A stretch of DNA of 64,000 bases, taken from assembly GCF_019343195.1 (NCBI RefSeq), contig NZ_RPHB01000009.1, positions 186,001-250,000 of the forward strand. Reading direction: 5' to 3'. The DNA is from Arthrospiribacter ruber. GTDB taxonomy: Bacteria > Bacteroidota > Bacteroidia > Cytophagales > Cyclobacteriaceae. The notes under the pieces were generated by a model. It was not told the DNA's origin and searched no databases. It saw nothing but the letters and a program-made list of their open reading frames with translations. The first letter of the stretch is position 1. Each line of letters begins with the position of its first letter. Position numbers and translations under genes: made by a program. This document shows positions 22,066 to 38,826 of the stretch, one piece after another.

Positions 22066-22506
22066 TTATCCTATAAGCCTTGAAAGTACTGTTTCTCCAT
22101 TGTTGACTTCTAAGGCCAGTTCCCTTAGTGTTTTTTTAGTCAACATTTCAAGGACATGGTTTCTCACCTTTTTGATTTCCGAATGAAGGGGGCAGGGGTT
22201 TTCTTCCGAGCACTCCCTGAGACCTAAACTACATCCACTGAACAGCCCATCCCCATCTATTGCCGAAACCAAATCCTTTAAAGTAAACTTTTCATGCGAT
22301 TTGTCTACATAAAATCCTCCATTGGGCCCCTTTTGTGAACCAACGATTTTTTTCCTGACCAAATCCTGAAGAATCTTAGCCGTAAAAGGCTCCGGGGCAT
22401 CAACATGAACTGCAATTTCCTTGGCTCCTACTCTCGCTCCAGATAAACTTTGAACCCAAATGTAGATTACCGCTTTGATGCCATATTGGCAAGCTTTTGA
22501 AAACAT
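22066..22506 (-). CDS. Rrf2-family transcriptional regulator (NsrR/IscR-like), copy 1
   Basis: The 146-residue protein has an N-terminal winged helix (MFSKACQYGIKAVIYI, then the recognition region EPFTAKILQDLVRKKIV) and a conserved three-cysteine set C92-x6-C99-x5-C105 (CSLGLRECSEENPC) that in NsrR and IscR binds an iron-sulfur cluster. Its paralogue at 58492 has the same Cys positions. It lies just downstream of the NnrS-like gene on the same strand. An 18-bp palindrome (22531-22548) precedes its start by 24 bp, which suggests autoregulation. An NO-sensing role is inferred from context. Confidence 0.85.
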   Translation of the reverse strand: MFSKACQYGIKAVIYIWVQSLSGARVGAKEIAVHVDAPEPFTAKILQDLVRKKIVGSQKGPNGGFYVDKSHEKFTLKDLVSAIDGDGLFSGCSLGLRECSEENPCPLHSEIKKVRNHVLEMLTKKTLRELALEVNNGETVLSRLIG

Positions 22507-22523: not shown

Positions 22524-23630
22524 CTAAATTAAGGATAAAAATGTCTTAATAATAAAATTAAACCTTTTCTTTAAGCTTTTGATAAGCACAATCAAAGCCA
22601 TCAAGGCAAACATTGCCAAAATGCTGTAGCCGTTAATCAGACCAAACATGGTCCTCCCTATTTGAATTTCCAAAGCACTGAATACAATCCTCCCTATTAA
22701 ACTCATTTGGAATACAATCCACCCAAACCATAATATGGGATGATAGGGCTTCTCTTTAATATTTAATACGACAGGTAAAATAATGGGGGCATGTGCCCAA
22801 ATCATAGAAAATGTAAAACCTAAAAAGAAACTATGAACAAACAAGTCATAATGAAAAGGACTGTGCGAAAAGAAACTCAGAATCAATCCGCTCAGTCCTA
22901 ACCAAATATAACCAAACCTCAAACCTATTCCTATATAACAAAACTGTCCCACCTTTTTAGCTGCCACTTTGGCCATATCAAAAGCAGATAGCCACAATGC
23001 AGCTAAAACCATCGACATTCCCAGCAAAAGGCCTCCATATCCATGGAAAGGCAGGAGCAAACTGACGAAGAAAATAAATATCAGCGCTAATAAAATTACT
23101 TTGGCCCATTGAGGAGTAGGTAAAAACTTGCTAAGTTCTAGCCGCTCTCCTACTATAGTCAATAATATAAACCCGATCCACCAAGACACCCCAGCAGGTA
23201 TAAATCCAGTTTTCAGTACCATCGCATTGCCCAACAACCAACAAACAGCACCTAATGAAATTACATATTGTTCCAAAACCTGGTGTTGGAAACTCTGAAA
23301 GTACATGATCAATACCAGTCCAATGCTGGCCATTAGTAGCATTATACCTCCGAGAGTGGGATTGCCCATCCACAACATTACCGGAACAGACAACCCACTC
23401 AGGAGAGGAACAACCAACCAACTTTTATGCTTCATGACCATTGCTCTTTCTAAGGAAATCAAGGTGCCCAAAAACCCCCCTACCATCAACAAACCATGCT
23501 GAGCGGCAGCGCCAGGAACAACCCAAGATAAATCCCCCAACCTAACCCATCCTCCGGAAATACCCATCAGTAAGGCCAATAGAACCAGAGGTAAAATATA
23601 GTTAGGCTTAATTATTTTCATGGTAAGCAA
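22524..23630 (-). CDS. NnrS-like polytopic membrane protein
   Basis: The 368-residue protein has about 10-12 membrane helices with His residues set inside them: AAAQHGLLMVGGFLG (near 44), FHYDLFVHSFFLGFTFSMIWAHAP (near 265-290). This resembles NnrS family proteins, haem/copper membrane proteins linked to denitrification and NO tolerance. The start may be Met4 (23621) rather than 23630. Two copies of the 18-bp palindrome lie upstream (23634-23651 and 23728-23745) with a good -7 element between them. It probably forms an operon with the Rrf2 gene 17 bp downstream. Confidence 0.6.
   Translation of the reverse strand: MLTMKIIKPNYILPLVLLALLMGISGGWVRLGDLSWVVPGAAAQHGLLMVGGFLGTLISLERAMVMKHKSWLVVPLLSGLSVPVMLWMGNPTLGGIMLLMASIGLVLIMYFQSFQHQVLEQYVISLGAVCWLLGNAMVLKTGFIPAGVSWWIGFILLTIVGERLELSKFLPTPQWAKVILLALIFIFFVSLLLPFHGYGGLLLGMSMVLAALWLSAFDMAKVAAKKVGQFCYIGIGLRFGYIWLGLSGLILSFFSHSPFHYDLFVHSFFLGFTFSMIWAHAPIILPVVLNIKEKPYHPILWFGWIVFQMSLIGRIVFSALEIQIGRTMFGLINGYSILAMFALMALIVLIKSLKKRFNFIIKTFLSLI
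22531..22548. promoter_or_regulatory. Candidate Rrf2 operator (AAGGATA-N4-TGTCTTA) before rrf2 copy 1
   Basis: AAGGATAAAAATGTCTTA differs from the site at 23728-23745 (read on the other strand) at a single base. It lies at the 3' end of the NnrS-like gene, 24 bp ahead of the Rrf2 start. Confidence 0.55.
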
Positions 23631-24008: not shown

Positions 24009-25868
24009 TCACATGGACAATACCTTCTCATTTTTGAAGAAATTCAAGCCATTTAATTCCTCTTTCATTTGATCCAGTTGTTGAAAAAACTGATTCTTAA
24101 CATTTCCAGCTTCTTCTGAAAATTGCAACTCCAAATTTTGATAATATTCAATCCCACCCAAAAGGTTTGATTTGAATTTCTCTACGTATGCCTCGTATTT
24201 TTTGCTTGGATCGGGTAGATTTTTTTGAATATCTTTTTTCAGATACTCAAAATACAATTGGAGCTCTTTTACAAAAATATGAGGCCTTTCCGCCTGGACC
24301 TTTAATTGAAGCTTTCCGTAAATATGGCCCACCATTTCACTTAAAGTGAAAACACCTTTGAAATAAGCCAGATTTGGTCCAGGACAAATGGTCACCGCAT
24401 TTAAGTTTCTTTTAGGTGTTCCTCCTTCATTTAAAATCGCAGGGGCACTTAAACCTTCACATAGACAATCTTTTTCCAAGACTTCATCCAGCGCTGCTTT
24501 GCTGGTATTTCCAGCGTTAAATTGCTTGATTTTAAGATCCTGATATTGTCGTGAAGCCGTACAAATAGCCTTTTCTGTAAACTCAGTATTAAAGGACAAA
24601 AACTTTTTATAGCAAGGACTTCCGGGTCTGTTTTTAGCTATCCTCATTTTCCTTTGATCCTCTCCACTACTGATTCGGAGGTTATTGAAAGGAACCCCCA
24701 GAGGAGAAGCATGGCTGAGGTAATAATCGGAGTTCTTGGCCTGAATCAACCTATCTAAGGTGTCCTTATCCACTGAGGTAGCCTCCGGAACAAGCAAAAA
24801 CGGACTTCCCCAACCTGTTCCATCGAGTTGGTAATAAGTCATCAAAAATTCATTTTCTTCCGAAGTACCTATTCCACCTTGATAAGTGATTTTAGGAATA
24901 ATATTCTCTGGAAGTGGATTTTTCCCTTTGGTCTCAAGTGCTTGTTGACAAGAAGAAAACAACATCTGGGTAAGGTTTGCCTTCTCTTTTTTAAACTCCT
25001 CCAATATAGGACCAATAAGCACCCCTTCTGTAGCAAATGCATGACCTCCACAATTGAGGCCGGATTCAATTCTAAACTCTGAAATCCATATTCCTTTTTT
25101 CGCTAAAAACCTTCCTTGTATCATCGCAGAACGATAATCAGAAACTTTCAAAATAATCTTCTTTTTCAACCTCCCCTGACTATCAGGGAAAAAGTCATCG
25201 AACTCTTCTATATAGCTGTAAAGGGCTGGGTTCATGCCTGCAGAAAATACAACAGAACTTTGAAGTGAAGATTGAGCAAATCCACGCAATGCAGACAAGG
25301 CGTCCGAATAAGTTCTAGGCAATTCATTCCCTTCCTTATCGAAGTTTATTTTATCCACTTTAGTCATGATGTTGACATCTATGTCCCCAGGTCTTACAGC
25401 TTCGATTAATTCTCGTTCCAGTTCCGATTTTTCAATAGATTCAGGGATACTCAAGTATTTTTTGAATTTTAAATAAAGAGAATTCTGAGGGTGAAGCAAT
25501 TCAAAATACTTAAACAACACACTACCTGGACTGAATGCCTGAGATTTGACCTCATTGATTTGTCTCGATACTATACCGTGCAAAAGATTAAGATAACTTT
25601 TAATCCGCTCGGCTCTGTAATCTGGAGTATTGGGTTCTATTGGTATATAAGGAATATTTCTTTTTCTGGAATGGAGCCGTCTCATGTCTTCCAGCAAATG
25701 GTCATCCATAATGGAAACTACAGAGCTGATACCAAAATTGGCTACCTTTAAAGGAGAGTCGACTGTGAAGCCTAATCCCATTACTGGGATATGAAATGCG
25801 TGATTTGGGGTCATTGGAATTTTTAAAATATAGGTAACTGAAATTTCCTCCAAAGGTACCTGACCCAA
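24009..25868 (-). CDS. Large conserved protein, possibly FMN TIM-barrel enzyme related to nitronate monooxygenase
   Basis: The 619-residue soluble protein matches no family I can name with certainty. Three segments recall nitronate monooxygenase-type FMN barrels: the opening VMGLGFTVDSPLKVANFGI, NCGGHAFATEGVLIGPILEE (compare the GGH loop), and GGIGTSEENEFLMTYYQL with DGTGWGSPFLLVPEAT (compare the phosphate-binding GGI and the following D-G-x3-G-x-x-F). The C-terminal third has clustered Cys (KDCLCEGL, CPGP) and a helical end. The true start may be Met19 at 25814. It lies 44 bp downstream of the UDG gene in one operon whose promoter carries a candidate Rrf2 operator, so a nitrosative-stress role is plausible. 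Confidence 0.45.
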   Translation of the reverse strand: MGQVPLEEISVTYILKIPMTPNHAFHIPVMGLGFTVDSPLKVANFGISSVVSIMDDHLLEDMRRLHSRKRNIPYIPIEPNTPDYRAERIKSYLNLLHGIVSRQINEVKSQAFSPGSVLFKYFELLHPQNSLYLKFKKYLSIPESIEKSELERELIEAVRPGDIDVNIMTKVDKINFDKEGNELPRTYSDALSALRGFAQSSLQSSVVFSAGMNPALYSYIEEFDDFFPDSQGRLKKKIILKVSDYRSAMIQGRFLAKKGIWISEFRIESGLNCGGHAFATEGVLIGPILEEFKKEKANLTQMLFSSCQQALETKGKNPLPENIIPKITYQGGIGTSEENEFLMTYYQLDGTGWGSPFLLVPEATSVDKDTLDRLIQAKNSDYYLSHASPLGVPFNNLRISSGEDQRKMRIAKNRPGSPCYKKFLSFNTEFTEKAICTASRQYQDLKIKQFNAGNTSKAALDEVLEKDCLCEGLSAPAILNEGGTPKRNLNAVTICPGPNLAYFKGVFTLSEMVGHIYGKLQLKVQAERPHIFVKELQLYFEYLKKDIQKNLPDPSKKYEAYVEKFKSNLLGGIEYYQNLELQFSEEAGNVKNQFFQQLDQMKEELNGLNFFKNEKVLSM

Positions 25869-26775: not shown

Positions 26776-28890
26776 ATGAATCAATTTGTCATCAAAAGAA
26801 ACGGGGAATACGCCCCATTTGAACCTTTCAAAATAGAAGATGCCCTGATCAAGGCATTTCAGAGTGTGCATCAACCGTATCATTCCCTCACTTTTAAAAA
26901 AGTCCTTCACCATTTACAATCCAAAACGACCTGGGCAGTAGAGGAGATTCAGGATATCATCGAAAAGGAATTGTATGCATTCGGGTATTTTGATGTCATG
27001 CGCTCCTTTATGCTCTACCGGCATACCCGCAAAATGCAACGGGAGCATGTGGCAGGACTCAACGAAGACACAACCTACGTGGACAGCACGCAGACCATCG
27101 AAGAATACATCCATCAAACCGACTGGCGGATCAATGCCAATGCCAATACATCCTACTCCAATGCAGGACTTGTCAATAATGTAGCGGGAAAAATCATCGC
27201 CAATTACTGGCTCGATAAGGTTTATAGCAAGGAAGAAGGTTATGCACACCGCAATGGAGACATTCATATCCATGACCTGGACTGTCTGACCGGATATTGT
27301 GCAGGTTGGAGTTTGAGAGTTTTGCTCAATGAAGGTTTCAATGGTGTAAGAGGCAGGGTTGAAAGCAAGCCTCCCTCCCACTTCAGAGAGGCACTTGGTC
27401 AAATGGCCAATTTCCTTGGAATCCTCCAAAGTGAATGGGCAGGAGCACAGGCATTCAGTTCATTTGATACTTACCTGGCTCCCTATGTCTTCAAAGACCA
27501 ACTTTCACAGAAGGATGTAGAAAAAGCCATCCGCTCTTTTGTCTACAACCTCAATGTACCTGCCCGGTGGGGACAGTCTCCTTTTACCAATATTACTTTG
27601 GATTGGGTTGTTCCTGAGGACTTAAAAGATCAGATCCCCACTAAAAATGACATTCATTTGTTCAAATTTATCCAAGATGAAAAACTACTGGAAATCGCCA
27701 AAAGCAGAGGTGTAAACAGCTTGGAAGATTTGAGCTACAAGTATTTTCAAAAGGAAATGAATATGATCAACAAGGCCTATTACACTGTAATGACAGAAGG
27801 TGATGCCAATGGTCAGCCCTTTACTTTCCCCATTCCCACTGTCAACATCACGGAAGATTTTGATTGGTATGGAGAAAATACCGACCTGCTGTTCGAAAAT
27901 ACCGCCAAAATCGGCTCCTCGTATTTCCAGAATTTTATAGGAAGTCAATACACCTATGATGAATCGGGCAACAAGGTCGAAAACCCAAATGCCTATAAAC
28001 CCAACGCTGTGCGCAGCATGTGTTGTAGATTGCAACTGGATCTCAGAGAACTTCTTAAAAGAGGAAATGGCCTTTTTGGCTCGGCAGAGATGACCGGAAG
28101 CATTGGCGTAGTCACCATCAATATGGCAAGGTTAGGCTATATCTACCAAGGAAACTTGGAGGGATTATACCAAAGGTTGGATCATCTTTTGGAAATAGCC
28201 AAATCCACCCTGGAGAAGAAGCGACAATTTATCCAAGAGATGTATGACAGAGGTCTTTTCCCTTATACCAAAAGGTACCTTCCCCATTTCCGAAATCACT
28301 TCAGCACCATCGGTGTCAATGGCATCAATGAAATGATCCTCAATTTCACCGACGGTGTGGATGATCTCACCTTTGACTCAGGGCAAAAATTGTCGGCAGA
28401 TATCCTGGAATATATCCGGGAGAAGATGAAAGTCTATCAGGAGGCGACAGGTAACCTTTACAACCTTGAAGCCACGCCTGCTGAAGGCACTACCTACAGA
28501 TTTGCCAAAGAAGACAAAAAACGCTTTGATGATATCATTCAGGCTGGAATGGAGGAAAACATCTACTACACCAATTCCTCGCAGATTCCTGTAGACTACA
28601 CCGATGATCCATTCGAGGCATTGATGCTACAGGATGATCTCCAATGCAAATACACCGGAGGCACGGTTTTGCACCTTTACATGAGGGAAAAAGTATCTTC
28701 AGCAGAGGCTTGCCGAAACTTGGTCAAAAAAGTACTCTCTAACTTTAAACTGCCTTACATAACTGTCACCCCGGTATTCAGCATTTGCCCTGTACATGGA
28801 TATCTGAACGGTGAACATGAATTCTGCCCAAAATGCGATGAAATCCTATTAGATAATTTAAACCAAAATAAACAAGAACATGCAAACTGA
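26776..28890 (+). CDS. nrdD: Anaerobic ribonucleoside-triphosphate reductase, large part lacking the glycyl-radical loop
   Basis: Class III reductase makes deoxyribonucleotides without oxygen. The 704-residue protein has an N-terminal ATP cone (about 3-90) and the ten-stranded barrel; the C-terminal zinc module CPVHGYLNGEHEFCPKC ends the protein. The usual last 50 residues with the glycyl-radical motif R-V-x-G-Y-x-R-P are absent from this frame. They occur in an overlapping ORF (28880-29050) in the +1 frame. nrdG follows. So the enzyme appears to be encoded as two polypeptides, or the gene carries a natural or artefactual frameshift. Confidence 0.88.
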   Translation: MNQFVIKRNGEYAPFEPFKIEDALIKAFQSVHQPYHSLTFKKVLHHLQSKTTWAVEEIQDIIEKELYAFGYFDVMRSFMLYRHTRKMQREHVAGLNEDTTYVDSTQTIEEYIHQTDWRINANANTSYSNAGLVNNVAGKIIANYWLDKVYSKEEGYAHRNGDIHIHDLDCLTGYCAGWSLRVLLNEGFNGVRGRVESKPPSHFREALGQMANFLGILQSEWAGAQAFSSFDTYLAPYVFKDQLSQKDVEKAIRSFVYNLNVPARWGQSPFTNITLDWVVPEDLKDQIPTKNDIHLFKFIQDEKLLEIAKSRGVNSLEDLSYKYFQKEMNMINKAYYTVMTEGDANGQPFTFPIPTVNITEDFDWYGENTDLLFENTAKIGSSYFQNFIGSQYTYDESGNKVENPNAYKPNAVRSMCCRLQLDLRELLKRGNGLFGSAEMTGSIGVVTINMARLGYIYQGNLEGLYQRLDHLLEIAKSTLEKKRQFIQEMYDRGLFPYTKRYLPHFRNHFSTIGVNGINEMILNFTDGVDDLTFDSGQKLSADILEYIREKMKVYQEATGNLYNLEATPAEGTTYRFAKEDKKRFDDIIQAGMEENIYYTNSSQIPVDYTDDPFEALMLQDDLQCKYTGGTVLHLYMREKVSSAEACRNLVKKVLSNFKLPYITVTPVFSICPVHGYLNGEHEFCPKCDEILLDNLNQNKQEHAN

Positions 28891-29050
28891 AATCAAAGAA
28901 CCCCAAACCAAAAACCTACTTTCCCAACATAAAGACAAAAGGACGAAATGTCTGGTATATACTCGGGTCATGGGTTACCACAGACCTGTAGAAAGTTTTA
29001 ACATTGGCAAAAAAGGGGAGCACAAACAGAGAACCCATTTCAAAGAATAA
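28880..29050 (+). CDS. Separate glycyl-radical C-terminal domain of anaerobic ribonucleotide reductase
   Basis: This 56-residue ORF starts with ATG at 28880, overlapping the last 11 bp of the large nrdD frame, and ends at TAA 29048-29050, 5 bp before nrdG. It contains RTKCLVYTRVMGYHRPVESF, which matches the radical-bearing end of class III reductases (R-V-x-G-Y-x-R-P), with Gly32 as the radical site, then the NIGKKGEHKQR basic tail typical of NrdD C-termini. The N-terminal 20 residues are not part of the usual domain and give it its own start. The frame is closed by a stop at 28859-28861, so a frameshift would have to occur in the short overlap. Confidence 0.75.
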   Translation: MQTEIKEPQTKNLLSQHKDKRTKCLVYTRVMGYHRPVESFNIGKKGEHKQRTHFKE

Positions 29051-29055
29051 ACTTA

Positions 29056-29733
29056 ATGGTCAAAAAGCCAATTTACAGTATCACCCCATTTACGCTGCTG
29101 GATTATCCAGATCATACAGCCTGCATCCTTTGGTTTGCAGGCTGTAATATGCGTTGCGGCTATTGCTACAATCCTGAAATCGTCAGGGGAAAAGGAAAGG
29201 TCGGTTTCGATGAAGTGCTCAGCTTTTTAGAAAAAAGGAAAAACCTGCTTGATGGTGTTGTCTTCAGCGGCGGGGAGTGCACGATGCACCAAGACCTACC
29301 TTACTATGCCTCGGAAGTAAAGCGCCTTGGGATGAAAGTCAAAATAGATACCAACGGAAGTCGTCCACACGTGCTCGAGGATTTGCTTTATGAAGGATTG
29401 GTGGATTATGTCGCACTGGATTTCAAAGCTTTGCCAGAAGATTTTGAAAGCATCACCCACTCTGATTTCTTTGAGCAGTTTAAAGAAAGTCTGGAAGTAT
29501 TGATAGGCCACGATGTTCCCTTTGAAATAAGGACAACCGTCCATTCAGAATTGATCAACGTAGAAAAGCTTTCGAAAATGGCTAGTTTCCTTCGTGACCA
29601 AGGCTACAAGGGAAAATATTATTTACAACACTTTGTAGGCGAAAAAGAAACAATCAAGACCTTATCTCACAGCAAAAAACCAAATTTGGCATTCACAGAT
29701 TATCCCGAACTTGAATTAGTCTGGCGAAACTAA
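29056..29733 (+). CDS. nrdG: Anaerobic ribonucleotide reductase activating enzyme (radical SAM)
   Basis: The 225-residue protein has the radical-SAM cluster motif C-x3-C-x2-C in FAGCNMRCGYCYNPEIV, followed by FSGGEC. It generates the glycyl radical on NrdD. It is the third gene of nrdD-glycyl domain-nrdG. The closest spacing in the set (5 bp) is to the small glycyl-domain ORF, which fits their functional pairing. The length is slightly above the usual NrdG and nearer to the YjjW/NrdG-2 type. Confidence 0.88.
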   Translation: MVKKPIYSITPFTLLDYPDHTACILWFAGCNMRCGYCYNPEIVRGKGKVGFDEVLSFLEKRKNLLDGVVFSGGECTMHQDLPYYASEVKRLGMKVKIDTNGSRPHVLEDLLYEGLVDYVALDFKALPEDFESITHSDFFEQFKESLEVLIGHDVPFEIRTTVHSELINVEKLSKMASFLRDQGYKGKYYLQHFVGEKETIKTLSHSKKPNLAFTDYPELELVWRN

Positions 29734-30770: not shown

Positions 30771-31358
30771 TCAAAACACAAGATAAAGTGCCGGGAAAAG
30801 CAACAACCATATCAGGTCACACATATGCCAAAATGCAGCTCCAGACTCAACATCAGCCAGCTCTACTGCCATAGATTTACTTTTCATATTGATCCAGATT
30901 ACCAGCAAAATCACCAAACCCACGAGCACATGCGCCAAATGAAAACCTGTCAGTAGCCAATAAAAAGTAAAAAACATATTATCTGCCATTTCTATGTCTG
31001 ATGAAAGCTTTTCATAATATTCCCAGCTTTTCAGACCTACGAATACCAGGCCGCCAAGCATGGTCAACAAAAGACTCCTCTTAGAGGCTTCCATTTCCCA
31101 AGATTTCAACTTCGCAACAGTGTCGGCCATAAAATATCCACTCACTAAAAGTACCAAGGTATTCAGCATTCCCAGCGGCGCATTGAGCATCAATCTCGAT
31201 GTATGAAAAAGTTCCGTCTCTAAATTTCCATAATAAACCAAACCTCCAATCCCCAATCCAAAGGTGACCAACTCCAATATGATGATAATCCATAACAGGA
31301 TTCCACCTGGAGGATAAGAAATGTCTCTATGATCTATGGAATGTGTTTTTATTTGCAT
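30771..31358 (-). CDS. norE: NorE-like cytochrome c oxidase subunit III family protein
   Basis: The 195-residue protein has five membrane helices and COX3 signatures: SYPPGGILLWIIIILEL at the start, LGGLVFVGLKSWEYYEKL in the middle and the terminal GFHLAHVLVGL and FWHMCDLIWLLLFPALYL. This short five-helix form next to norB is NorE, thought to support NO reductase stability or activity. It starts 1 bp after the norD stop and is followed by norF. Confidence 0.82.
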   Translation of the reverse strand: MQIKTHSIDHRDISYPPGGILLWIIIILELVTFGLGIGGLVYYGNLETELFHTSRLMLNAPLGMLNTLVLLVSGYFMADTVAKLKSWEMEASKRSLLLTMLGGLVFVGLKSWEYYEKLSSDIEMADNMFFTFYWLLTGFHLAHVLVGLVILLVIWINMKSKSMAVELADVESGAAFWHMCDLIWLLLFPALYLVF

Positions 31359-31359
31359 T

Positions 31360-33153
31360 CTACTGGTGTTTAATCCTTTCGTACAACTTGACCAGTGAGC
31401 TTAACAACTCCACTGGTGTGGTCAGAATCTGATAATGATTTTGTCCAAACATCTGAGGCAGGTAGTATTTGGCTTGGGCTTCAATGGCAAGGGCATAGGA
31501 ATGTATCTGCCTCTCATTCAGTTCGCGTAGTGCCTGCTTGATGTCCTGAATGCCGTATTTCCCTTCATATCGGTCATAATCGTTGGGCTTGCCATCTGAT
31601 ATCAGGATTACCCATTTGTTTTTGGTCTTTCGTTGATCTAGCCTGGCACCGGCATGACGCAGTGCAGCCCCAATTCTGGTATAGCCTTGAGGTTCGACCG
31701 CCCCAATTCTTTGTTTGCCTAAATTCCAGCTTTCATCAAATTCCTTAAGAGTAAGGTACGTGGAGTAATTTCTGGTTTTGGAATAAAAACTATCAATGGA
31801 AAAATCTATATCAAACTCATTCAAAATCTCTCCGAAAAGAATGGAGACTTCTTTTTCCACGTCAATCACCCGATTATTGTCAGCATATCCATCGCTGGAT
31901 AAACTCACGTCCAAAAGAAGTAATATGGAAAGGTCTTTCTCTTTTTTCCGTTTGGAGAGATAAATATTTTCAGCAGGAGTTTTCCGGGCATGTACATCCG
32001 TATATAAATCCGTCAAAGCATCTATATCAAACTCATCCCCTTGATTCTGCCTGCGCTGCTGCTGCATTTTGTTGTTGACGGAAGTAAGCATTTTACGTAA
32101 ACCCAACAAGGTATTTGCATGCTTGGAAATGGTATTTCGGTAATAGTCCAAATCAGTTTTCACCAAAGTTTGGGGATACACTTTACAAAAATCAGGTTTA
32201 TAAATCCGCTTTTTAAAATCCCATTCATCATAGAGCAAATGGAAGCCTTTTTCATCCCGCTCAGCACTTTCAGAGACGGTAGTATTTTCTACAAATTCTG
32301 CCTGATAAATCGAATGCGCAGGGTCATCCACCCTAACAGTAAATTTCATGCTCAACTCTTCCAATGCATCCTGATGGTCTTCCAACTCGTCTTTGCCATC
32401 AAAATCCCGCCAAACCCCATTGGATTCTTCAGCCGTTTCCACCTTTTCAAAGTTGTGCAGTAAAACATAGTCTTCCTGCTGCTTTTTATCGATGGTGAGG
32501 TTTTTTACTTCCTCCACCGCTTTGGCCATCAATGTGGTTGTTGGATTTTCTTCTTTGCCCTTTTTGGTTCGATCGTCAAAATTCTGAAGGGAATCATCTA
32601 CATCTGCCAAAGGGTCAGCATACATCCATTTTCCATAAAGTAAACTCAAATCCGCTTGCTCTCCGGGCTTGGTCTTGGACTCAAAATGGCTTTTTATTTT
32701 ATCATGCAGTTGGGCAGCAATCCTAAACTCATCAGCTAACTTTTCCATGACGGCAGGAGCCGTCTGTTCGGCCATCTGACGGGAAAGGATCAGATCGTCC
32801 GTTTCCTTAGTCCAATTATAGCCTAGGTCTTGTTGTGCGCTCAGATAAAGTGTTCTAAAAAAATAGAAATAGAGGTTTTCTTCCCAAGTTGGAAACTCGG
32901 CAAAAGAAATGGGAAGGAAGAAATTATTGTTTTTAAAACCTCCCTCTGCTTCAGCAGGATAAATGTCAATTGCTTTCCCGGTAATGGCCCTGGCCAAAAA
33001 AGTCAATCTTGGCCGGATTACTTCCAAATCCACCTTCTGGTGCATTTCCAATTCGGCTTTCAGTCGGCTTTTTTTAAAATACCGAACCAACCTGCCATAT
33101 ACCCATTCATCTATATCCAGTCCCATTTTCTGATTTATTTCTATTTTGTTCAA
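31360..33153 (-). CDS. norD: NorD, von Willebrand factor A domain protein for NO reductase activation
   Basis: The 597-residue soluble protein has a long N-terminal part and a C-terminal VWA domain (about 400-590) with an intact metal site: LLLLDVSLSSDG (DxSxS), a Thr in GYTRIGAALRHAGARL and the Asp in ISDGKPNDYD. NorD acts with the AAA+ protein NorQ to insert iron or otherwise activate the NorBC complex. norQ lies upstream on the same strand, but the two are separated by a 302-bp repeat-filled spacer. Confidence 0.9.
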   Translation of the reverse strand: MNKIEINQKMGLDIDEWVYGRLVRYFKKSRLKAELEMHQKVDLEVIRPRLTFLARAITGKAIDIYPAEAEGGFKNNNFFLPISFAEFPTWEENLYFYFFRTLYLSAQQDLGYNWTKETDDLILSRQMAEQTAPAVMEKLADEFRIAAQLHDKIKSHFESKTKPGEQADLSLLYGKWMYADPLADVDDSLQNFDDRTKKGKEENPTTTLMAKAVEEVKNLTIDKKQQEDYVLLHNFEKVETAEESNGVWRDFDGKDELEDHQDALEELSMKFTVRVDDPAHSIYQAEFVENTTVSESAERDEKGFHLLYDEWDFKKRIYKPDFCKVYPQTLVKTDLDYYRNTISKHANTLLGLRKMLTSVNNKMQQQRRQNQGDEFDIDALTDLYTDVHARKTPAENIYLSKRKKEKDLSILLLLDVSLSSDGYADNNRVIDVEKEVSILFGEILNEFDIDFSIDSFYSKTRNYSTYLTLKEFDESWNLGKQRIGAVEPQGYTRIGAALRHAGARLDQRKTKNKWVILISDGKPNDYDRYEGKYGIQDIKQALRELNERQIHSYALAIEAQAKYYLPQMFGQNHYQILTTPVELLSSLVKLYERIKHQ

Positions 33154-33455
33154 TTTTATCCCGAATCACTTCTCTCTTCTGGTTTGCGCTAAAGCTCTGG
33201 TTTGAAAATATTTCGCCGAAGGCATATTTCAACTTTATTTCACGAAGTATATTTCAATAACCAATACCCAAGATCACTTTCAGCCAGTATCCATAAATAT
33301 CAATCAGTATCCACCAATATCTATTTCAATCATATTTCGCGAAGCATATTTCCATTATATTTCTACAATATCCCGAATCGCTTCGCTCTCGGGATCTCCG
33401 TTTCACTCCGATTTCGCACCGCATATTTCAATTATATTTCAACCCTATTCCAATA
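33154..33455. repeat. Intergenic repeat mosaic, copy 3, inside the nor gene cluster
   Basis: The spacer between norQ and norD is a mosaic in inverted orientation of the same words as copies 1, 2 and 5: ATTTCGCCGAAGGCATATTTC, CACTTCTCTCTTCTGGTTTG, repeated CAATATC/AGTATCCA words (33270-33320), the CCCGAATCGCTTCGCTCTCG hairpin (33372-33394) and TCCGTTTCACTCCGATTTCG. No coding ORF. Its position breaks an otherwise tightly packed operon. Confidence 0.75.
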
Positions 33456-34235
33456 TCATATCATCAAATCCACCAAATCCTTCATAGACTCAATGGTCTG
33501 TGCATCATCGCTAAGGGGTTCGACAATCGCCACATGACAGGCAAGCCTCTTGGGTAGACCACTATTGATCAGTTTAGCCGCATCCACCAACAAGCGGGTA
33601 GAAACCGTTTCTGTCAAACCCAATTCGGTAAGATTCCGGATTTTACCACCTATAGCCACCAGCTTTTTGGCAATATCCTGCTCCACTCCAGTTTCGTTGA
33701 CAAGAATTTCTGTTTCAATTTTTGCTGTTGGATAACCAAAGCTCAAAGCCACAAAACGTTGCCTTGTGGAAGGTTTCAGCTCTTTGAAACCTCTTTGGTA
33801 ACCTGGATTGAAGGAAGCAATCAACATGAAGTTTTCATGGGCTTTGACCGTCTCTCCGAGTTTATCAATGAACAATTCCCTTCTGTGATCTGTCAGCGAG
33901 TGGATAGCCACTATCACATCAGGTCGGGCCTCAGCCACCTCATCCAGGTAAAGGATTGCCCCTTCCCTGACTGCTGTAGTCAATGGGCCATCTATCCATA
34001 CCGTTTCAGCTCCTTTGATAATAAACCTACCTATCAAATCCGTAGAGGATGTTTCTTCATGGCAGGAAATAGTGATCAGTTTCTGACCTGTTGTGTGGGC
34101 CATATATTCCACAAACCGGGATTTCCCACTTCCTGTTGGCCCTTTTAGCAGTAAAGGCATGCGGTTTTGGAAGGTTTGTAAAAAAACCTCCGATTCCTGA
34201 TGTGTCTGATGATAATAAGGTGCTTCGATGACCAT
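33456..34235 (-). CDS. norQ: NorQ, MoxR-type AAA+ ATPase
   Basis: The 259-residue protein has Walker A GPTGSGKSRFVE at about 34-45, the MoxR-type loop SCHEETSSTDLIGRFI, Walker B GAILYLDEVAEA and sensor region FMLIASFNPGYQRG. It is the ATPase partner of NorD in maturing NO reductase. It lies 130 bp downstream of norB in the order norC-norB-norQ-norD-norE-norF. Confidence 0.92.
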   Translation of the reverse strand: MVIEAPYYHQTHQESEVFLQTFQNRMPLLLKGPTGSGKSRFVEYMAHTTGQKLITISCHEETSSTDLIGRFIIKGAETVWIDGPLTTAVREGAILYLDEVAEARPDVIVAIHSLTDHRRELFIDKLGETVKAHENFMLIASFNPGYQRGFKELKPSTRQRFVALSFGYPTAKIETEILVNETGVEQDIAKKLVAIGGKIRNLTELGLTETVSTRLLVDAAKLINSGLPKRLACHVAIVEPLSDDAQTIESMKDLVDLMI

Positions 34236-34365
34236 AATATTGAGTTTTGAGTTTTGAAAGCCGGGCTGCCAGAAGAGACAACCCAGCTAAAATCAGGAAT
34301 CGGCAAATCTGATAAAGAAACAGACCGATGGCCTATTTTCCTGTTTGAGAATTAAAATGAAGGCT

Positions 34366-35721
34366 TTAACTAACCAAAACAGCTTCTTCATTTTTGGTTA
34401 GTGCTTCATCAGTAGGCCTACCATATTTGATAAATTCATAAATATAGATTCCGATTCCGGTTGCAAACATGGTAGCACAAAGCAGCATCACCACAAAGTG
34501 GATTTTGACTTCTTCCTGAGCCACCATAAAATCCATGCTGAGTCTTCTTTCCAGATAGACTTGTACTACACCTGCAACACCAAGTGCTACCACCATCCCT
34601 AGCATACCGATATTTGACAGCCAGAAAGCAAGATGTCCGTTGGTTTTGTCATGTCGTTTTCTGCCGGTGATATTAGGCATGGCATAACTGATGATGGCCA
34701 ATACAATCATCACATAAGCACCCCAAAAAGCATAATGTCCATGCATAGCCGTCACCAAAGTACCGTGGGTGTAGAGATTGGTCTGTGGAAGTGTATGGGC
34801 AAAGCCCAGCAACCCTGCACCGATAAAAGAAACAATAGCCGCTCCGATAGTCCAGAAAAGGGCGATTTTGTTGGGGTGGTTTTTCTCACCTTTGCGGTAC
34901 ATATAGACTGCAAACAATGCCATGGCCAAGAATGCAAGTGGCTCCAAGGCAGAGAATACTCCCCCTACGATTAACCAGATTTTATTCACTCCTATATAGT
35001 AATAGTGGTGACCTGTACCCAGGATCCCTGATAGGAAGGTCAAACCAACGATCACATAAAGCCATTTTTCAATGACTTCTCTATCTACCCCTGTCAATTT
35101 GATCAGAAGGAAGGCTAATATTCCGCCCATGATCAATTCCCAAACTCCTTCTACCCAAAGATGAACTACCCACCATCTAAAAAAGGAGTCGGTTACCTGT
35201 GAATCAAACCATATCATTCCAGGGAGGTACAAGAGCGCGGCAAAAACCAGCCCCATAGTCATAACCAAAGCTGTGGTGGTCTGCCTTTTCCCTTTAAACA
35301 AAGTAGCTAAGATTATTCCCAAAAACAGCAGTACATTGATGACCACCAGATAATCCAGTTCTCGGGGGATTTCCAAAAACTTTCTTCCTTCCCAGATATT
35401 AAAGTGGTAGCCTGTGATGGCAGCCACCCCAACCACAGCCAGAGAAATCAACTGCACGTATGCCAGTTTTACACTGACGAGTTCCCTTTGTGCTTCTTCC
35501 GGAATGATGTAATATGCTGCACCCATAAATCCGGTCAGCAACCAAACAACCAATAAATTGGTATGAACCGCCCTCGCGGTATTGAAGGGAATCCAGTCAT
35601 GGAGTCCATCCATGCCGATTCTGGCAAATCCCATGATAAATCCATAGACGATCTGTAGAGCGAAGAGCAGCATACATAAGGCAAAAAACCAGTAGGCTAC
35701 CTGTTGTGATTTATATTTCAT
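34366..35721 (-). CDS. norB: Nitric oxide reductase large subunit (cytochrome c-dependent type)
   Basis: NorB reduces two NO to N2O at a haem b3/FeB centre. The 451-residue, 12-helix protein keeps the ligand set: H53 (AVHTNLL) and H329/H327 (MHGHYAF) for the haems, H187 (VVHLWVEGVWE), H238 and H239 (GTGHHYY) for FeB, and the conserved Glu residues E191, E195 and E260. It lacks the N-terminal extension of quinol-dependent qNor, and norC is directly upstream, so it is cNor. It is fully intact. Confidence 0.95.
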   Translation of the reverse strand: MKYKSQQVAYWFFALCMLLFALQIVYGFIMGFARIGMDGLHDWIPFNTARAVHTNLLVVWLLTGFMGAAYYIIPEEAQRELVSVKLAYVQLISLAVVGVAAITGYHFNIWEGRKFLEIPRELDYLVVINVLLFLGIILATLFKGKRQTTTALVMTMGLVFAALLYLPGMIWFDSQVTDSFFRWWVVHLWVEGVWELIMGGILAFLLIKLTGVDREVIEKWLYVIVGLTFLSGILGTGHHYYYIGVNKIWLIVGGVFSALEPLAFLAMALFAVYMYRKGEKNHPNKIALFWTIGAAIVSFIGAGLLGFAHTLPQTNLYTHGTLVTAMHGHYAFWGAYVMIVLAIISYAMPNITGRKRHDKTNGHLAFWLSNIGMLGMVVALGVAGVVQVYLERRLSMDFMVAQEEVKIHFVVMLLCATMFATGIGIYIYEFIKYGRPTDEALTKNEEAVLVS

Positions 35722-35834
35722 GTGTTTGTTTTTTGTTTACAATGGTCATAACCTGCCCCGATAATCGGGGTGGAATCTCGCATGACAGCATTTTGTCTCT
35801 AAAAGAGATTTTTGACATGCTCGATTTCATAGTT

Positions 35835-36275
35835 CTAGTCTTTTATTTTGTCTTTTGCCAATGGTGAAACAATCCTCTCAAAGCCATTGAGGTCGATCTC
35901 CCCAATCCACTTGAGGTATTCAACCATGGCTTCTGCATCTTCGTCGTTCATTTCGTAAGCAACCATTTTCCTTCCGTTGGGTGCCCAAGGTATCGGGGAT
36001 TGAAGGATAGCCTTTACCATTGGGGCTCCTTTTCTATCGATGACTTTGGTAAGCTCAGGAGCATAGTAGCCCCCTTCTCCCAGAATAGCGTGGCAACCCA
36101 TGCAATTATTGGTTTCCCAAATGTGCTTGCCTTTAATTACCTGTTCGGTAATGTTCTGATGATTGGACTGGTCATTGCTAGGAGCCATGGAATAAATGGT
36201 CAATCCGATAAATATCAGAAAGGTCACCACCGTACCACCCAGAAAGAATGTCCTTGCCTGTGATTTTGATAGCAT
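35835..36275 (-). CDS. norC: Nitric oxide reductase small subunit, membrane-bound cytochrome c
   Basis: The 146-residue protein has one N-terminal membrane anchor (FFLGGTVVTFLIFIGLTIYS) and a single haem c site CMGCH at 58-62, with a Met ligand near 104 (GRKMVAYEM). It passes electrons from periplasmic carriers to NorB. It is first in the nor cluster. Upstream, its promoter has a near -7 element (36332-36339), a candidate Rrf2 operator (36306-36323) and an FNR-like palindrome (36396-36415). Confidence 0.93.
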   Translation of the reverse strand: MLSKSQARTFFLGGTVVTFLIFIGLTIYSMAPSNDQSNHQNITEQVIKGKHIWETNNCMGCHAILGEGGYYAPELTKVIDRKGAPMVKAILQSPIPWAPNGRKMVAYEMNDEDAEAMVEYLKWIGEIDLNGFERIVSPLAKDKIKD

Positions 36276-36305
36276 ATATAACCGGGTTTAAATATTTTAG
36301 TATTA

Positions 36306-36339
36306 AAAGACCTTTTTATCTTTTATTGAAACGAAGGTA
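36306..36339 (-). promoter_or_regulatory. norC promoter with candidate Rrf2 operator
   Basis: Leftwards TACCTTCG (complement of 36332-36339) is one base from the TAnnTTTG -7 element. Eight bases further downstream, over the likely transcription start, lies AAAGACCTTTTTATCTTT (36306-36323), a copy of the regulon palindrome. Confidence 0.55.
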
Positions 36340-36395
36340 CAACCAGAATTGAAAAATCAAATAGGATTTTGAAAAAAAATTACCAAATTGAAAAA

Positions 36396-36415
36396 AACCT
36401 GATGTAGATCAGGTT
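36396..36415. promoter_or_regulatory. FNR/CRP-type palindrome between norC and fnr genes
   Basis: A perfect palindromic pair of arms, AACCTGAT-GTAG-ATCAGGTT, fits the FNR/Dnr layout TTGAT-N4-ATCAA with one changed base per arm. It lies 61 bp before the FNR-type gene and about 80 bp upstream of the likely norC start point. Confidence 0.6.
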
Positions 36416-36475
36416 TAGACTTGGCGCAGGTCAGAAAAAAAAGCTTCAACAAAAGTTTACTTGCATCTTCAAATT

Positions 36476-37180
36476 ATGGAAGTCAATTGTAAAGTATGTA
36501 TAACTTCTTCTTGCCTTGTGAAAAATTGTAGCGATGCATGGCTGGAGAAATTATCCCTTGCCAAAAACTCCCCTATTTACCCCAAAGGGCAGTTTATTTT
36601 TATGGAAGGGAGTTTGGTGATGGGTGCTTATTTTATCTTGAAAGGAAAAGTCAAAGTCATCAGTTCCAGCTTGGACGGAAAAGAACATACAGTCCGATTG
36701 GCCCGTGAAGGCCATATGCTGGGGCATACCGCCATAGGTATGGAAAAATACAGTATTGGCGCTGTTACCCTGACAGATTCTCAGGTTTGCTTTATTGATA
36801 ATCAAACTTTGCAGGCTGCATTTATGGAGAATCCCAAATTCACTTTTGAGGTGATGCGCTTTTATTCAAGAGAGTTAAGAAAAAGTGAAATCAGAACTAA
36901 ATGTCTTGCCTTGATGAACAATGAAGAGAAGGTAATTTTAGGTTTATTGTACATAGCTGACAATTACTTACCCGATCCAAATGATAATCAGGTAGAGATC
37001 AATCTCAGCAGACAGGAAATTGCCCAGATCATAGGTACCAATTCCGAACAGGTCAGCAGGGTTCTTTCTTCTCTCAAAAAAGATGGCCTGATAGAAACCC
37101 ATGAAAGGGCAATTTTGCTCTGTGATATCCGAAAACTGAAAGAAGTTATCAGCCACTATGCTTTTGCAACACAATATTAA
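36476..37180 (+). CDS. Crp/Fnr-family regulator with N-terminal cysteine cluster
   Basis: The start ATG at 36476 gives MEVNCKVCITSSCLVKNC with C5, C8, C13 and C18, an FNR-like [4Fe-4S] ligand set; a TTG further upstream is less likely. A cyclic-nucleotide-binding fold follows (about 30-140) and a C-terminal HTH reads SRQEIAQIIGTNSEQVSRVLSSL, whose E-x2-S-R pattern is that of FNR recognition helices. The 234-residue protein lies between norC (divergent) and nirK. It probably senses oxygen or NO and switches on denitrification. FNR-like sites lie near norC, nirK and narK. Confidence 0.85.
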   Translation: MEVNCKVCITSSCLVKNCSDAWLEKLSLAKNSPIYPKGQFIFMEGSLVMGAYFILKGKVKVISSSLDGKEHTVRLAREGHMLGHTAIGMEKYSIGAVTLTDSQVCFIDNQTLQAAFMENPKFTFEVMRFYSRELRKSEIRTKCLALMNNEEKVILGLLYIADNYLPDPNDNQVEINLSRQEIAQIIGTNSEQVSRVLSSLKKDGLIETHERAILLCDIRKLKEVISHYAFATQY

Positions 37181-37232
37181 ACCCAAACCTGCGATTTCGC
37201 AGATATTTTTCTGCCAAAATAGTTAAATCGGA

Positions 37233-37246
37233 TTGACTCCAATCAT
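37233..37246. promoter_or_regulatory. FNR-like half-palindrome upstream of nirK
   Basis: TTGAC-TCCA-ATCAT is an imperfect TTGAT-N4-ATCAA. Its centre lies 29.5 bp before a weak -7 candidate (TTTCTTTG at 37269-37276), the same distance as seen at narK. Confidence 0.4.
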
Positions 37247-37323
37247 GAGCTTTCTATAGCTTATCTATTTTCTTTGTAGTGACAAAAAGCCTAATCGCCT
37301 TTTGAAGTCAATGAAGTAAATCC

Positions 37324-38826
37324 ATGAAATTAAAAAAATACGAAACCATGAACTACAAAAACATTTGCCCAAATAAAGGATATTTTTATCCTTTACTCTT
37401 TATCTTAGCTTTAGCTTTTACAGCCTGCACCCAAAGCCAGTCTAGGAACACAGGAGCCAAGAGCTATACAAAGGATTACAGCAAAACCAAAGTATTCGGA
37501 GAAATGGTAGCAGAACTGACTGCACCTCCCCATGTACCTCCACCTGTTGGAAACAGACCAGCCATGAAACTCTACATGGAAATGGAAATCACCGAAGAAG
37601 AAATGGAAATGGCAGATGGGGTATCTTACCTTTTCTGGACATTTGGCGGAACTGTACCAGGATCATTTATCCGCGCTAGGGTTGGTGATGAAGTAGAATT
37701 TAAAATCAAAAATCACCCTGATAATAAACTTCCTCACAATATTGACCTCCACGCAGTGACAGGTCAGGGAGGTGGCGCCGAAGCTTCATTCGTTGCTCCG
37801 GGTCATGAAAAAACCTTCTCCTTCAAACTGATCAATCCTGGGCTTTATGTTTATCACTGTGCCACAGCTCCAGTGGGCATGCACATCGCCAACGGAATGT
37901 ATGGACTGATTCTCGTGGAACCAGAAGGCGGTTTACCTCCAGTAGACAAAGAGTTCTATGTGATGCAAGGAGACTTTTATACTGAAGGTAGATTTGGAGA
38001 ACCTGGTTTACAGCCTTTCGACATGCAAAAAGCTTACGACGAAAGACCTGATTATGTGGTATTCAACGGTAGCGTCAATGGACTCAGTGGAGAAAATGCC
38101 CTCCAAGCCAAAGCAGGAGAAACCATCAGGATCTTCTTTGGAAACGGCGGCCCTAACCTGGCTTCTTCCTTCCACGTCATCGGAGAAATTTTCGATAAAG
38201 TCTATGTAGATGGTGGTGATCAGATCAATTCCAATGTAGGTACGACTTTGGTTCCGGCAGGTGGAGCAGCGATCCTGGAATTCAAAGCTGATGTACCCTC
38301 TAACCTTGTCCTCGTAGATCACTCCATTTTCAGGGCATTTAATAAAGGTGCTTTGGGAATCTTAAGTGTAACTGGTGAAGAAAATGAAAAAATCTTTGCC
38401 GGAGAAATCATGGAAGGGATCTATCTCCCTGAAGGAAGTACCATTCAGAAAATGCCCAAAGATGGCAATGTTGTAAGCCCTCCAGTGACTATGACCAAAA
38501 GTGAGCTGATCGATACAGGAAAGAAAATCTACATGCAGGCCTGCTTTGCCTGTCACCAAGCCAATGGTGAAGGGGTAGCTAATGCCTTCCCTCCCCTAGC
38601 CAATGCCGACTATCTGAATGCTGACGTCAATCGCTCTATAGATGTATTACTTCATGGGCTTTCAGGTGAAATCACAGTAAACGGCAAAAAATACAACAGC
38701 ATCATGCCTTCCCAGCAGCTCAAAGATGAAGAGGTAGCAGCCGTATTGACTTATGTGTACAACAGCTGGGGGAATAACGGTTCCGAAGTCACCCCTGAAA
38801 TGGTGAACAAAAGAAGAAAGAAATGA
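37324..38826 (+). CDS. nirK: Copper nitrite reductase NirK with fused C-terminal cytochrome c
   Basis: NirK reduces nitrite to NO. The 500-residue precursor has a lipoprotein signal (LALAFTAC, Cys35; Met9 at 37348 is a possible start), two cupredoxin domains and a haem domain. Type 1 Cu ligands: H138, C179, H187, M192. Type 2 Cu: H143, H178, H333. Catalytic D141 and H284. The C-terminal cytochrome c has CFACH at 407-411 and a Met ligand near 461. The fused haem likely takes electrons directly from periplasmic carriers. It overlaps the SUMF1-like gene by 4 bp (ATGA). A perfect 18-bp regulon palindrome lies within its signal-peptide codons (37376-37393). Confidence 0.93.
   Translation: MKLKKYETMNYKNICPNKGYFYPLLFILALAFTACTQSQSRNTGAKSYTKDYSKTKVFGEMVAELTAPPHVPPPVGNRPAMKLYMEMEITEEEMEMADGVSYLFWTFGGTVPGSFIRARVGDEVEFKIKNHPDNKLPHNIDLHAVTGQGGGAEASFVAPGHEKTFSFKLINPGLYVYHCATAPVGMHIANGMYGLILVEPEGGLPPVDKEFYVMQGDFYTEGRFGEPGLQPFDMQKAYDERPDYVVFNGSVNGLSGENALQAKAGETIRIFFGNGGPNLASSFHVIGEIFDKVYVDGGDQINSNVGTTLVPAGGAAILEFKADVPSNLVLVDHSIFRAFNKGALGILSVTGEENEKIFAGEIMEGIYLPEGSTIQKMPKDGNVVSPPVTMTKSELIDTGKKIYMQACFACHQANGEGVANAFPPLANADYLNADVNRSIDVLLHGLSGEITVNGKKYNSIMPSQQLKDEEVAAVLTYVYNSWGNNGSEVTPEMVNKRRKK
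37376..37393. promoter_or_regulatory. Perfect regulon palindrome inside the nirK signal-peptide codons
   Basis: AAGGATATTTTTATCCTT has complete 7-bp arms (AAGGATA / TATCCTT) and is the best match of all sites. It lies 28 bp after Met9 of nirK, an unusual place that would suit a roadblock type of repression. Confidence 0.5.

Follow-up and report, generated by a model that had tools for sequence, protein, structure and literature searches.

A class III ribonucleotide reductase whose glycyl-radical domain is encoded by a separate small gene in Arthrospiribacter ruber and its relatives

The nrdD locus

We analyzed a stretch of 64,000 nucleotides from Arthrospiribacter ruber (contig NZ_RPHB01000009.1), hereafter the window, in which the gene for the class III ribonucleotide reductase (RNR) NrdD ends before its glycyl-radical domain (GRD), and the domain is found on a small open reading frame (ORF) of its own. 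Class III RNR is usually regarded as a single-chain radical enzyme. All coordinates below are window positions. The features of the locus are as follows.

26776-28890, + strand: nrdD, catalytic subunit without the radical domain, comprising ATP-cone, barrel and putative zinc module; 704 aa, 81.2 kDa, stop TGA (ORF; PF13597 positions 2-528 of 562)
26785-27033, + strand: ATP-cone domain, residues 4-86 (PF03477, 62.5 bits)
28021-28026, + strand: Cys416-Cys417 of RSMCCRLQLDL (alignment to Prevotella copri NrdD)
28786-28836, + strand: putative zinc module, residues 671-687 (CPVHG...CPKC), with which the conserved sequence upstream of the split ends (sequence)
28880-28890, + strand: 11-bp overlap, from the GRD ATG at 28880 to the nrdD stop TGA at 28888-28890 (ORF coordinates)
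28880-29050, + strand: stand-alone GRD gene, 56 aa, 6.7 kDa, ATG to TAA, the proposed radical-bearing small subunit of NrdD (PF13597 positions 531-562)
28973-28975, + strand: codon for Gly32 of RVMGYHRP, presumed to bear the radical (homology)
29056-29733, + strand: nrdG, radical-SAM activase, 225 aa (TIGR02495, 210.7 bits)

The nrdD ORF terminates soon after ICPVHGYLNGEHEFCPKCDE and lacks the glycyl-radical motif; the product of the small ORF contains KRTKCLVYTRVMGYHRPVESFNIGKKGEHKQRTHF, codon 32 being the presumed radical glycine. Relative to nrdD, the GRD ORF lies in frame +1 (28880-26776 = 2104, remainder 1), and a gap of 5 bp (29051-29055) separates it from nrdG. An earlier note, made from the letters of the window, had described exactly this arrangement, namely a 704-codon nrdD ending past the zinc module without the radical motif, an overlapping 56-codon ORF with its own ATG and nrdG 5 bp further on, and the ORF coordinates bear it out in each point.

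The NrdD body scored 540.4 bits with PF13597, 1079.5 with NF006126 (PRK08270) and 419.1 with TIGR02487, while nrdG exceeded the cut-off of its TIGR02495 (NrdG2) profile of 131.15 bits. PF13597 was the sole Pfam match of the small ORF at E <= 0.01 (29.2 bits, cut-off 26.2), with no PFL-type Gly_radical domain found. As the two ORFs match positions 2-528 and 531-562 of the same profile, together they make up a single NrdD that is divided at a point between zinc module and glycyl loop. No intron, intein or homing endonuclease gene lies between the two parts, which overlap instead. The expected RVxGY glycyl loop is thus present, yet at the gene level it lies outside the NrdD chain. Cys417 aligns to the Cys of TMGCRT in P. 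copri NrdD (Cys416 there), a residue with a role in radical initiation (PMC11226230), and is taken to be the finger-loop thiyl-radical cysteine. The three Cys and one His of the zinc module are present and suggest a ligand set of the form C-x2-H...C-x2-C.

A search of the whole A. ruber genome (5.36 Mb, 20 contigs, estimated to be 100% complete and 0.25% contaminated) with PF13597 at E <= 0.001 found one body and one GRD, both at this locus, and no third place; no intact or fused NrdD was found by this search. Two class I/II large-subunit loci (Ribonuc_red_lgC) are also present. These results should be considered with regard to the possibility that the stand-alone GRD serves as a backup for a separate, intact NrdD, as YfiD/GrcA does for pyruvate formate-lyase (PFL). 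YfiD/GrcA does rescue oxygen-damaged PFL (PMC12338860), and some genomes possess extra prophage GRDs, as described below. In the A. ruber genome, however, the only body ends at profile position 528 and is accompanied by a single GRD, and as no intact NrdD was found, the small subunit must be obligate here, such that a backup role in this organism is very unlikely.

Conservation of the split

NrdD was present in 34 of 245 genomes of the same family (Cyclobacteriaceae), and all 34 loci were inspected. The split seen in the window recurs in 26 of these, which are all of the family NrdDs of the same type, and always at the same place. The remaining eight are undivided and of distant types, five being of the RVTGY kind (L015, L023, L024, L031, L257) and three of a shorter RVIGY kind (L258-L260). 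Comparison of nrdD 3' ends across relatives, which the earlier note had proposed as a check, thus did not refute the split, as it revealed no undivided nrdD of this type within the family; fused members occur at a greater distance, in small number (L210, L215, L253, L254). In the family split set, the position of the GRD ATG relative to the end of the nrdD stop varies between about 23 bases upstream and 145-193 bases downstream, the latter belonging to L017 and depending on the ATG chosen, and all three frames are used.

The core of the GRD is under strong purifying selection. Over 35 codons compared with 119 other loci, the median pN was 0.053 and the median pS 0.89, the latter being near saturation. 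As the small-ORF core is thus selected and as the split recurs in relatives, we consider it confirmed that the split is more than chance. Since faulty frameshifts at the ends of genes are common in assemblies, one could suspect that this single genome has a sequencing error or a pseudogene in decay. Given the 26 of 26 same-type family genes split at the same place, a small ORF that is under selection and a genome of the estimated quality mentioned above, this explanation has practically no likelihood left, and sequencing error was ruled out by the conservation of the split.

Junction geometry and unlinked GRDs

For the analysis of junctions, 163 loci were used as input, of which 15 lacked one of the two motif patterns and 4 were fused; the rest yielded 120 distinct split junctions. 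In all 120, an ATG lies upstream of the glycyl motif. The frames +1, +2 and 0 occur 82, 20 and 18 times, respectively, and the spacing of the GRD from nrdD ranges from -41 to +1587 nt (76 overlaps, 29 at 0-50 nt, 12 at 51-300 nt and 3 beyond). It should be noted that the ATG nearest to the motif was taken, which is probably internal in some loci (e.g., L017 and L118), so single distances are approximate. Junctions in the same frame contain one to eight stops between the parts.

Other genes may also intervene. In L243 and L244, nrdD is separated from the GRD-nrdG pair by a nicotinamide phosphoribosyltransferase-type gene (with Pfam run on L243), while nrdG-like and c-type-cytochrome-like genes, named from their sequence, lie between nrdD and the GRD in L242. 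In genome G1419, nrdD (C1:104221) lacks a GRD and is followed by a malate:quinone-oxidoreductase-like gene, and a GRD paired with an nrdG-type radical-SAM gene is found near 9.4 kb of the same contig, about 95 kb from nrdD. Such a placement of the GRD beside nrdG, elsewhere on the chromosome, is represented by L236 and L237.

These data bear on the two readings that the earlier note had offered, a two-polypeptide NrdD and a programmed frameshift in the overlap. That a ribosomal frameshift, or read-through of the stop, joins the ORFs into a single NrdD is in keeping with the overlap in the window and with the single in-frame stop of some relatives (L004, L109, L246, L247). Against this stand the unconserved frame and spacing with an ATG in every case, the several same-frame junctions with two to eight stops or with a gap between the parts, the intervening genes, the unlinked GRD and the stand-alone GRDs of prophages. 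We thus regard joining by frameshift or read-through as highly improbable, and as a general mechanism the programmed frameshift was ruled out by junction geometry. Two polypeptides, in contrast, are supported by the same observations, together with the uniform split in the family.

Distribution among cellular genomes and plasmids

Wider scans employed a profile of the small ORF (A1, 16 rows). Matches were found in 21 of 390 genomes of the order and in 11 of 395 of the class, all of them short open frames of 56-85 aa. The scan of the phylum gave matches in 22 of 395 genomes. Ten of these are strong and belong to short frames (56-92 aa, E <= 3e-29), 11 are distant (E >= 1e-10) and belong to fused NrdDs in frames of 714-805 aa, and the last is weak and broken. 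As the three draws share some genomes, their counts should not be added. Among the matches listed for named genomes (80 loci of 560 stretches), 79 are split and one is without a body as the contig ends; the 80 loci include Cyclobacteriaceae, Flavobacterium, Sphingobacteriaceae, Chitinophagaceae and Nautiliaceae.

Within the Campylobacterota, 75 of 150 genomes have NrdD, with 59 split, 15 undivided and 1 fragment, as counted from the table. In 16 of the split forms, one or two in-frame TAA codons precede the GRD; in the other 43, the body stops at profile position 528-537 and the GRD is separate (42 tabled, plus G1446, the GRD of which was seen in L245). In G1346 and G1414, tabled as one long frame, a TAA or TGA lies between the NrdD parts.

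On plasmids, the GRD was matched in 28 records and the NrdD body is found in 29. We inspected 17 plasmid loci (L206-L220, L222, L223): the split was seen in 12 and a fused NrdD in 3 (Actinomyces L210, Acidiphilium L215 and Geoalkalibacter L220), and 2 have a GRD without nrdD. Split NrdDs are borne by plasmids of Sulfuricurvum, Bradyrhizobium, Cupriavidus, Cereibacter, Sulfuricystis, Azospira, Shinella, Thiothrix, Aquabacterium and Paracoccus. In several plasmid gene tables, the small ORF already has an entry of its own under the name 'nrdD', without comment. Two Allochromatium plasmids (L209, L223) hold the GRD ORF alone, annotated as nrdD, and no Allochromatium plasmid was found among the 29 body-bearing records. 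On a Thiothrix fructosivorans plasmid (L217), the nrdD body seems broken (the matching open frame has 321 aa), though GRD and nrdG are listed. The one phage locus inspected (L221, record MT835493.1) has a fused NrdD, the C-terminal tail of which is thioredoxin-like as read from the sequence.

Evolution of the split

Two quick IQ-TREE runs with SH-aLRT support were made on NrdD bodies. For the first, 138 distinct bodies with a length of 430 aa or more, with L032-L049 left out, were reduced to 82 rows according to similarity; this tree requires 3 state changes, which amount to 1 gain and 2 re-fusions when the root is placed on the fused outgroups. The second had 70 rows, as 13 Campylobacterota rows were added and 25 of the previous rows omitted, and requires 5 changes (1 gain and 4 re-fusions). 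In these trees, split-type bodies form one group with a few fused members nested inside, and Bacteroidota rows are placed among the Campylobacterota. The simplest account of the trees would be a single old split, movement between phyla and re-fusion on two to four occasions, though splitting may also have occurred repeatedly. The long branches of L220, L221, L192 and L031 are uncertain and, because sampling started from split GRDs, fused relatives in other phyla are under-sampled.

Structure prediction

For structure prediction, we chose Cecembia lonarensis L109, where body and GRD share a frame with one stop between them, and modelled the chain read through this stop with AlphaFold2 and an alignment of 58 rows. 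The model had a pLDDT of 85.6 and a pTM of 0.81, and the blocks of the GRD scored 93, 84, 88 and 90, falling to 57 in the last one. The N-terminal extension of the GRD has a predicted short helix (715-721). In VIA-align, the model was superposed on P. copri NrdD (8p2s_B) with Z 33.6 and 2.7 Å over 549 residues, residues 80-760 lying on 85-735, where the range denotes the first to last aligned residue and other NrdD rows show larger rmsd. The best 36 Foldseek chains were all class III RNRs, and the GRD profile had no match among PDB chains at E <= 1. As the aligned range ends inside the P. copri GRD (residues 676-739; PMC11226230), the model indicates that NrdD body and GRD together can form the canonical fold.

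Phage and prophage GRDs

Stand-alone GRDs are not confined to the vicinity of nrdD or nrdG. Two further GRDs of genome G1419 are located in separate prophage-like stretches, where each is flanked by a holin gene and a DUF5675-type gene (L238 and L239; the DUF5675 scan was made on L238, and L239 holds a gene with the same start). In genome G1455, a single stop separates nrdD from the genome's own GRD, and a second GRD (L240) adjoins an endolysin and is close to a terminase. In IMG/VR, 48 contigs encode a GRD (L158-L205), 46 of them without an NrdD body over the whole contig and 2 with a split nrdD. These contigs are fragments, the longest being 183, 177, 81 and 73 kb, so a body may lie elsewhere; the 177-kb contig shows an extra weak match over 27 profile positions. 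A terminase (phrog_2) was matched in 13 of the 29 viral contigs longer than 20 kb that were tested, although such a match is weak evidence for viral origin, given that 11 of 14 control genomes are matched by this model too. In several of the GRD contigs, the terminase match reads through many TGA codons, as in recoded phages. The GRD adjoins an amidase/endolysin in L162 and follows a tail-fibre gene in L158, with terminase and neck genes within 4 kb.

Both the window GRD (E 9.6e-9) and a viral-contig GRD (L159, E 3.3e-9) match phrog_4132, a 179-position model of phage proteins that carries no annotation and is matched near its end. In five viral entries (G1331, G1332 and G1335-G1337), the Pfam match extends back through stop codons to position 482-508, as if the end of an nrdD had preceded the GRD; in two of these contigs (L261, L262), the body profile found nothing real with code 11 or 4. 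A collection of 50,697 curated phage records gave no match to the window GRD or to the prophage GRD of L240, and two weak matches to the GRD of Cupriavidus necator, one continuing an NrdD match and one annotated NrdD, so no stand-alone GRD outside NrdDs was found there.

The phage-borne GRDs would presumably act on the NrdD of the host, and a backup role is possible in these cases. Taken further, the GRD of NrdD may be a mobile, interchangeable radical cofactor protein: hosts would retain the catalytic subunit and equip it with small radical-bearing subunits whose genes lie beside nrdD, beside nrdG elsewhere, or on resident or infecting phages and plasmids, and carriers of the GRD alone, several of which have it in a lysis cassette, would revive the oxygen-damaged or limiting reductase of the host and so secure dNTPs for phage replication. 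We offer this extension tentatively, giving it slightly less than an even chance.

Gene neighbourhood

The genes surrounding the locus are given below; the Nor and Nir labels were assigned in this analysis.

22066-22506: Rrf2
22524-23630: membrane protein, no Pfam match
24009-25868, - strand: 619-aa protein, no Pfam match at E <= 0.001
30771-31358: COX3 (NorE-type)
31360-33153: VWA (NorD-type)
33456-34235: CbbQ/NorQ
34366-35721: COX1 (NorB-type)
35835-36275: cytochrome c (NorC-type)
36461-37180: Crp-type regulator
37324-38826: Cu-oxidase with cytochrome c (NirK-type)

The nrdD-GRD-nrdG genes thus adjoin, or sit in, a denitrification-type cluster (30771-38826). Similar surroundings are found elsewhere, the C. 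necator locus adjoining a nitric-oxide reductase gene, that of Sulfuricurvum lying near an NnrS-family gene and napA, and that of Shinella near nosL. Among 91 loci surrounding a GRD (90 with a body), 40 contain a homologue of the nor/nir-type proteins of the window, or of the membrane protein at 22524-23630, in the stretch examined. Rrf2 was found in 42 of the 91, the cytochrome c query matched 16 loci and the NirK-type query 10; as the NirK-type query also has a cytochrome c part, some of the latter two kinds of match may be generic. Homologues of the 619-aa protein are present in 13 of the 91 loci. FNR-like boxes were not informative, with 98 matches at two mismatches as compared to 74 expected, and PADLOC found nothing.

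The pHG1 locus of C. necator H16 encodes a split nrdD (676 aa and 66 aa) followed by nrdG, and these nrdDG genes are reported to be essential for complete denitrification (PMC2864759). In Cupriavidus metallidurans CH34, nrdD is reported as Rmet_5137 and nrdG as Rmet_5139, which would leave the number between them for the GRD; locus L216 is split.

An alternative is that the anaerobic reductase of A. ruber no longer functions; the two Ribonuc_red_lgC loci could mean that class I/II RNRs suffice and that the split locus was kept by drift or transfer. Against this, body and GRD are strongly conserved in three phyla, nrdG is retained next to them, the genes are located in a denitrification cluster and the split locus of C. 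necator is reported to be required, and we consider a non-functional reductase to be very unlikely.

Interpretation

The data describe a real, conserved and widespread two-gene NrdD, best read as two polypeptides, and we consider it highly probable that the locus encodes a class III RNR with a separate small radical subunit. The 704-aa NrdD would supply the ATP-cone, the barrel, the thiyl-radical cysteine and the zinc module, and the 56-aa protein, translated separately from its own ATG and probably by coupling at the overlapping stop, would supply the glycyl-radical loop and the C-terminal tail. We infer that NrdG places the radical on the small protein, which would then dock non-covalently where the fused GRD of other NrdDs sits and hand the radical to the catalytic cysteine, allowing the two-part NrdD to make dNTPs in anaerobic, denitrifying growth. 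The likely benefit would be that when oxygen cuts the glycyl radical, only a cheap and replaceable small subunit is lost.

Several points weigh against this interpretation and should be considered. That the two chains are separate and associate is a prediction from the genes, and the oxygen-repair rationale is a hypothesis, though a likely one. The structural model cannot show non-covalent docking, as the chain was read through the stop and fused NrdDs were in the alignment; another alignment, of 48 rows, produced a poor model with a mean pLDDT of 70.3 and the last 28 residues below 50. Finally, as the few fused relatives mentioned above (Actinomyces L210, Acidiphilium L215 and Campylobacterota L253 and L254) indicate, the split is not needed for function.

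If correct, a radical residing on a separate subunit of 6-7 kDa would allow the radical part to be labelled, mutated and titrated apart from the catalytic part, and would permit a direct test of whether delivery of a glycyl radical in trans can be obligate. It also suggests a possible way for facultative anaerobes and denitrifiers to cut the cost of oxygen damage. Surveys demanding a C-terminal glycine would misfile such NrdDs as truncated, and small unannotated phage genes are offered a candidate function. The mobile stand-alone GRD is the newest part of these findings; a separate radical subunit of NrdD was not described in the literature searched, which covered few subscription journals.

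Among known systems, the class III NrdD/NrdG enzymes of P. copri (8p2s/8p23), Thermotoga maritima and phage T4 resemble the window proteins in ATP-cone, barrel, finger-loop Cys, putative zinc module, RVxGY loop and NrdG partner, but the solved NrdDs have the GRD in the same chain, whereas that of the window is a separate gene. The earlier note had pointed to YfiD, which holds as an analogy of mechanism, YfiD/GrcA being a small stand-alone glycyl-radical domain expected to act in trans on a large glycyl-radical enzyme (PMC12338860). It does not hold for sequence, as GrcA is PFL-type and rescues an enzyme that has its own domain, while the window GRD is NrdD-type and the sole copy in its genome. 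Phage NrdDs may also be encoded in several pieces (PMC3653736, PMC12363816), yet these are mostly interrupted by introns, inteins and endonuclease genes, in contrast to the window split, which has no insert, lies at a domain border and is widespread. The C. necator H16 locus shares the split, but belongs to a proteobacterial branch of the tree, and its GRD ORF starts 142 nt after nrdD with no overlap. A likely precedent is a 1999 report by Siedow, in which C. necator NrdD is reportedly of about 76 kDa, a size that would fit the body alone. The NrdD of Pseudomonas aeruginosa, PA1920, is given as 76 kDa (PMC12284477) and, by its size, may be split as well.

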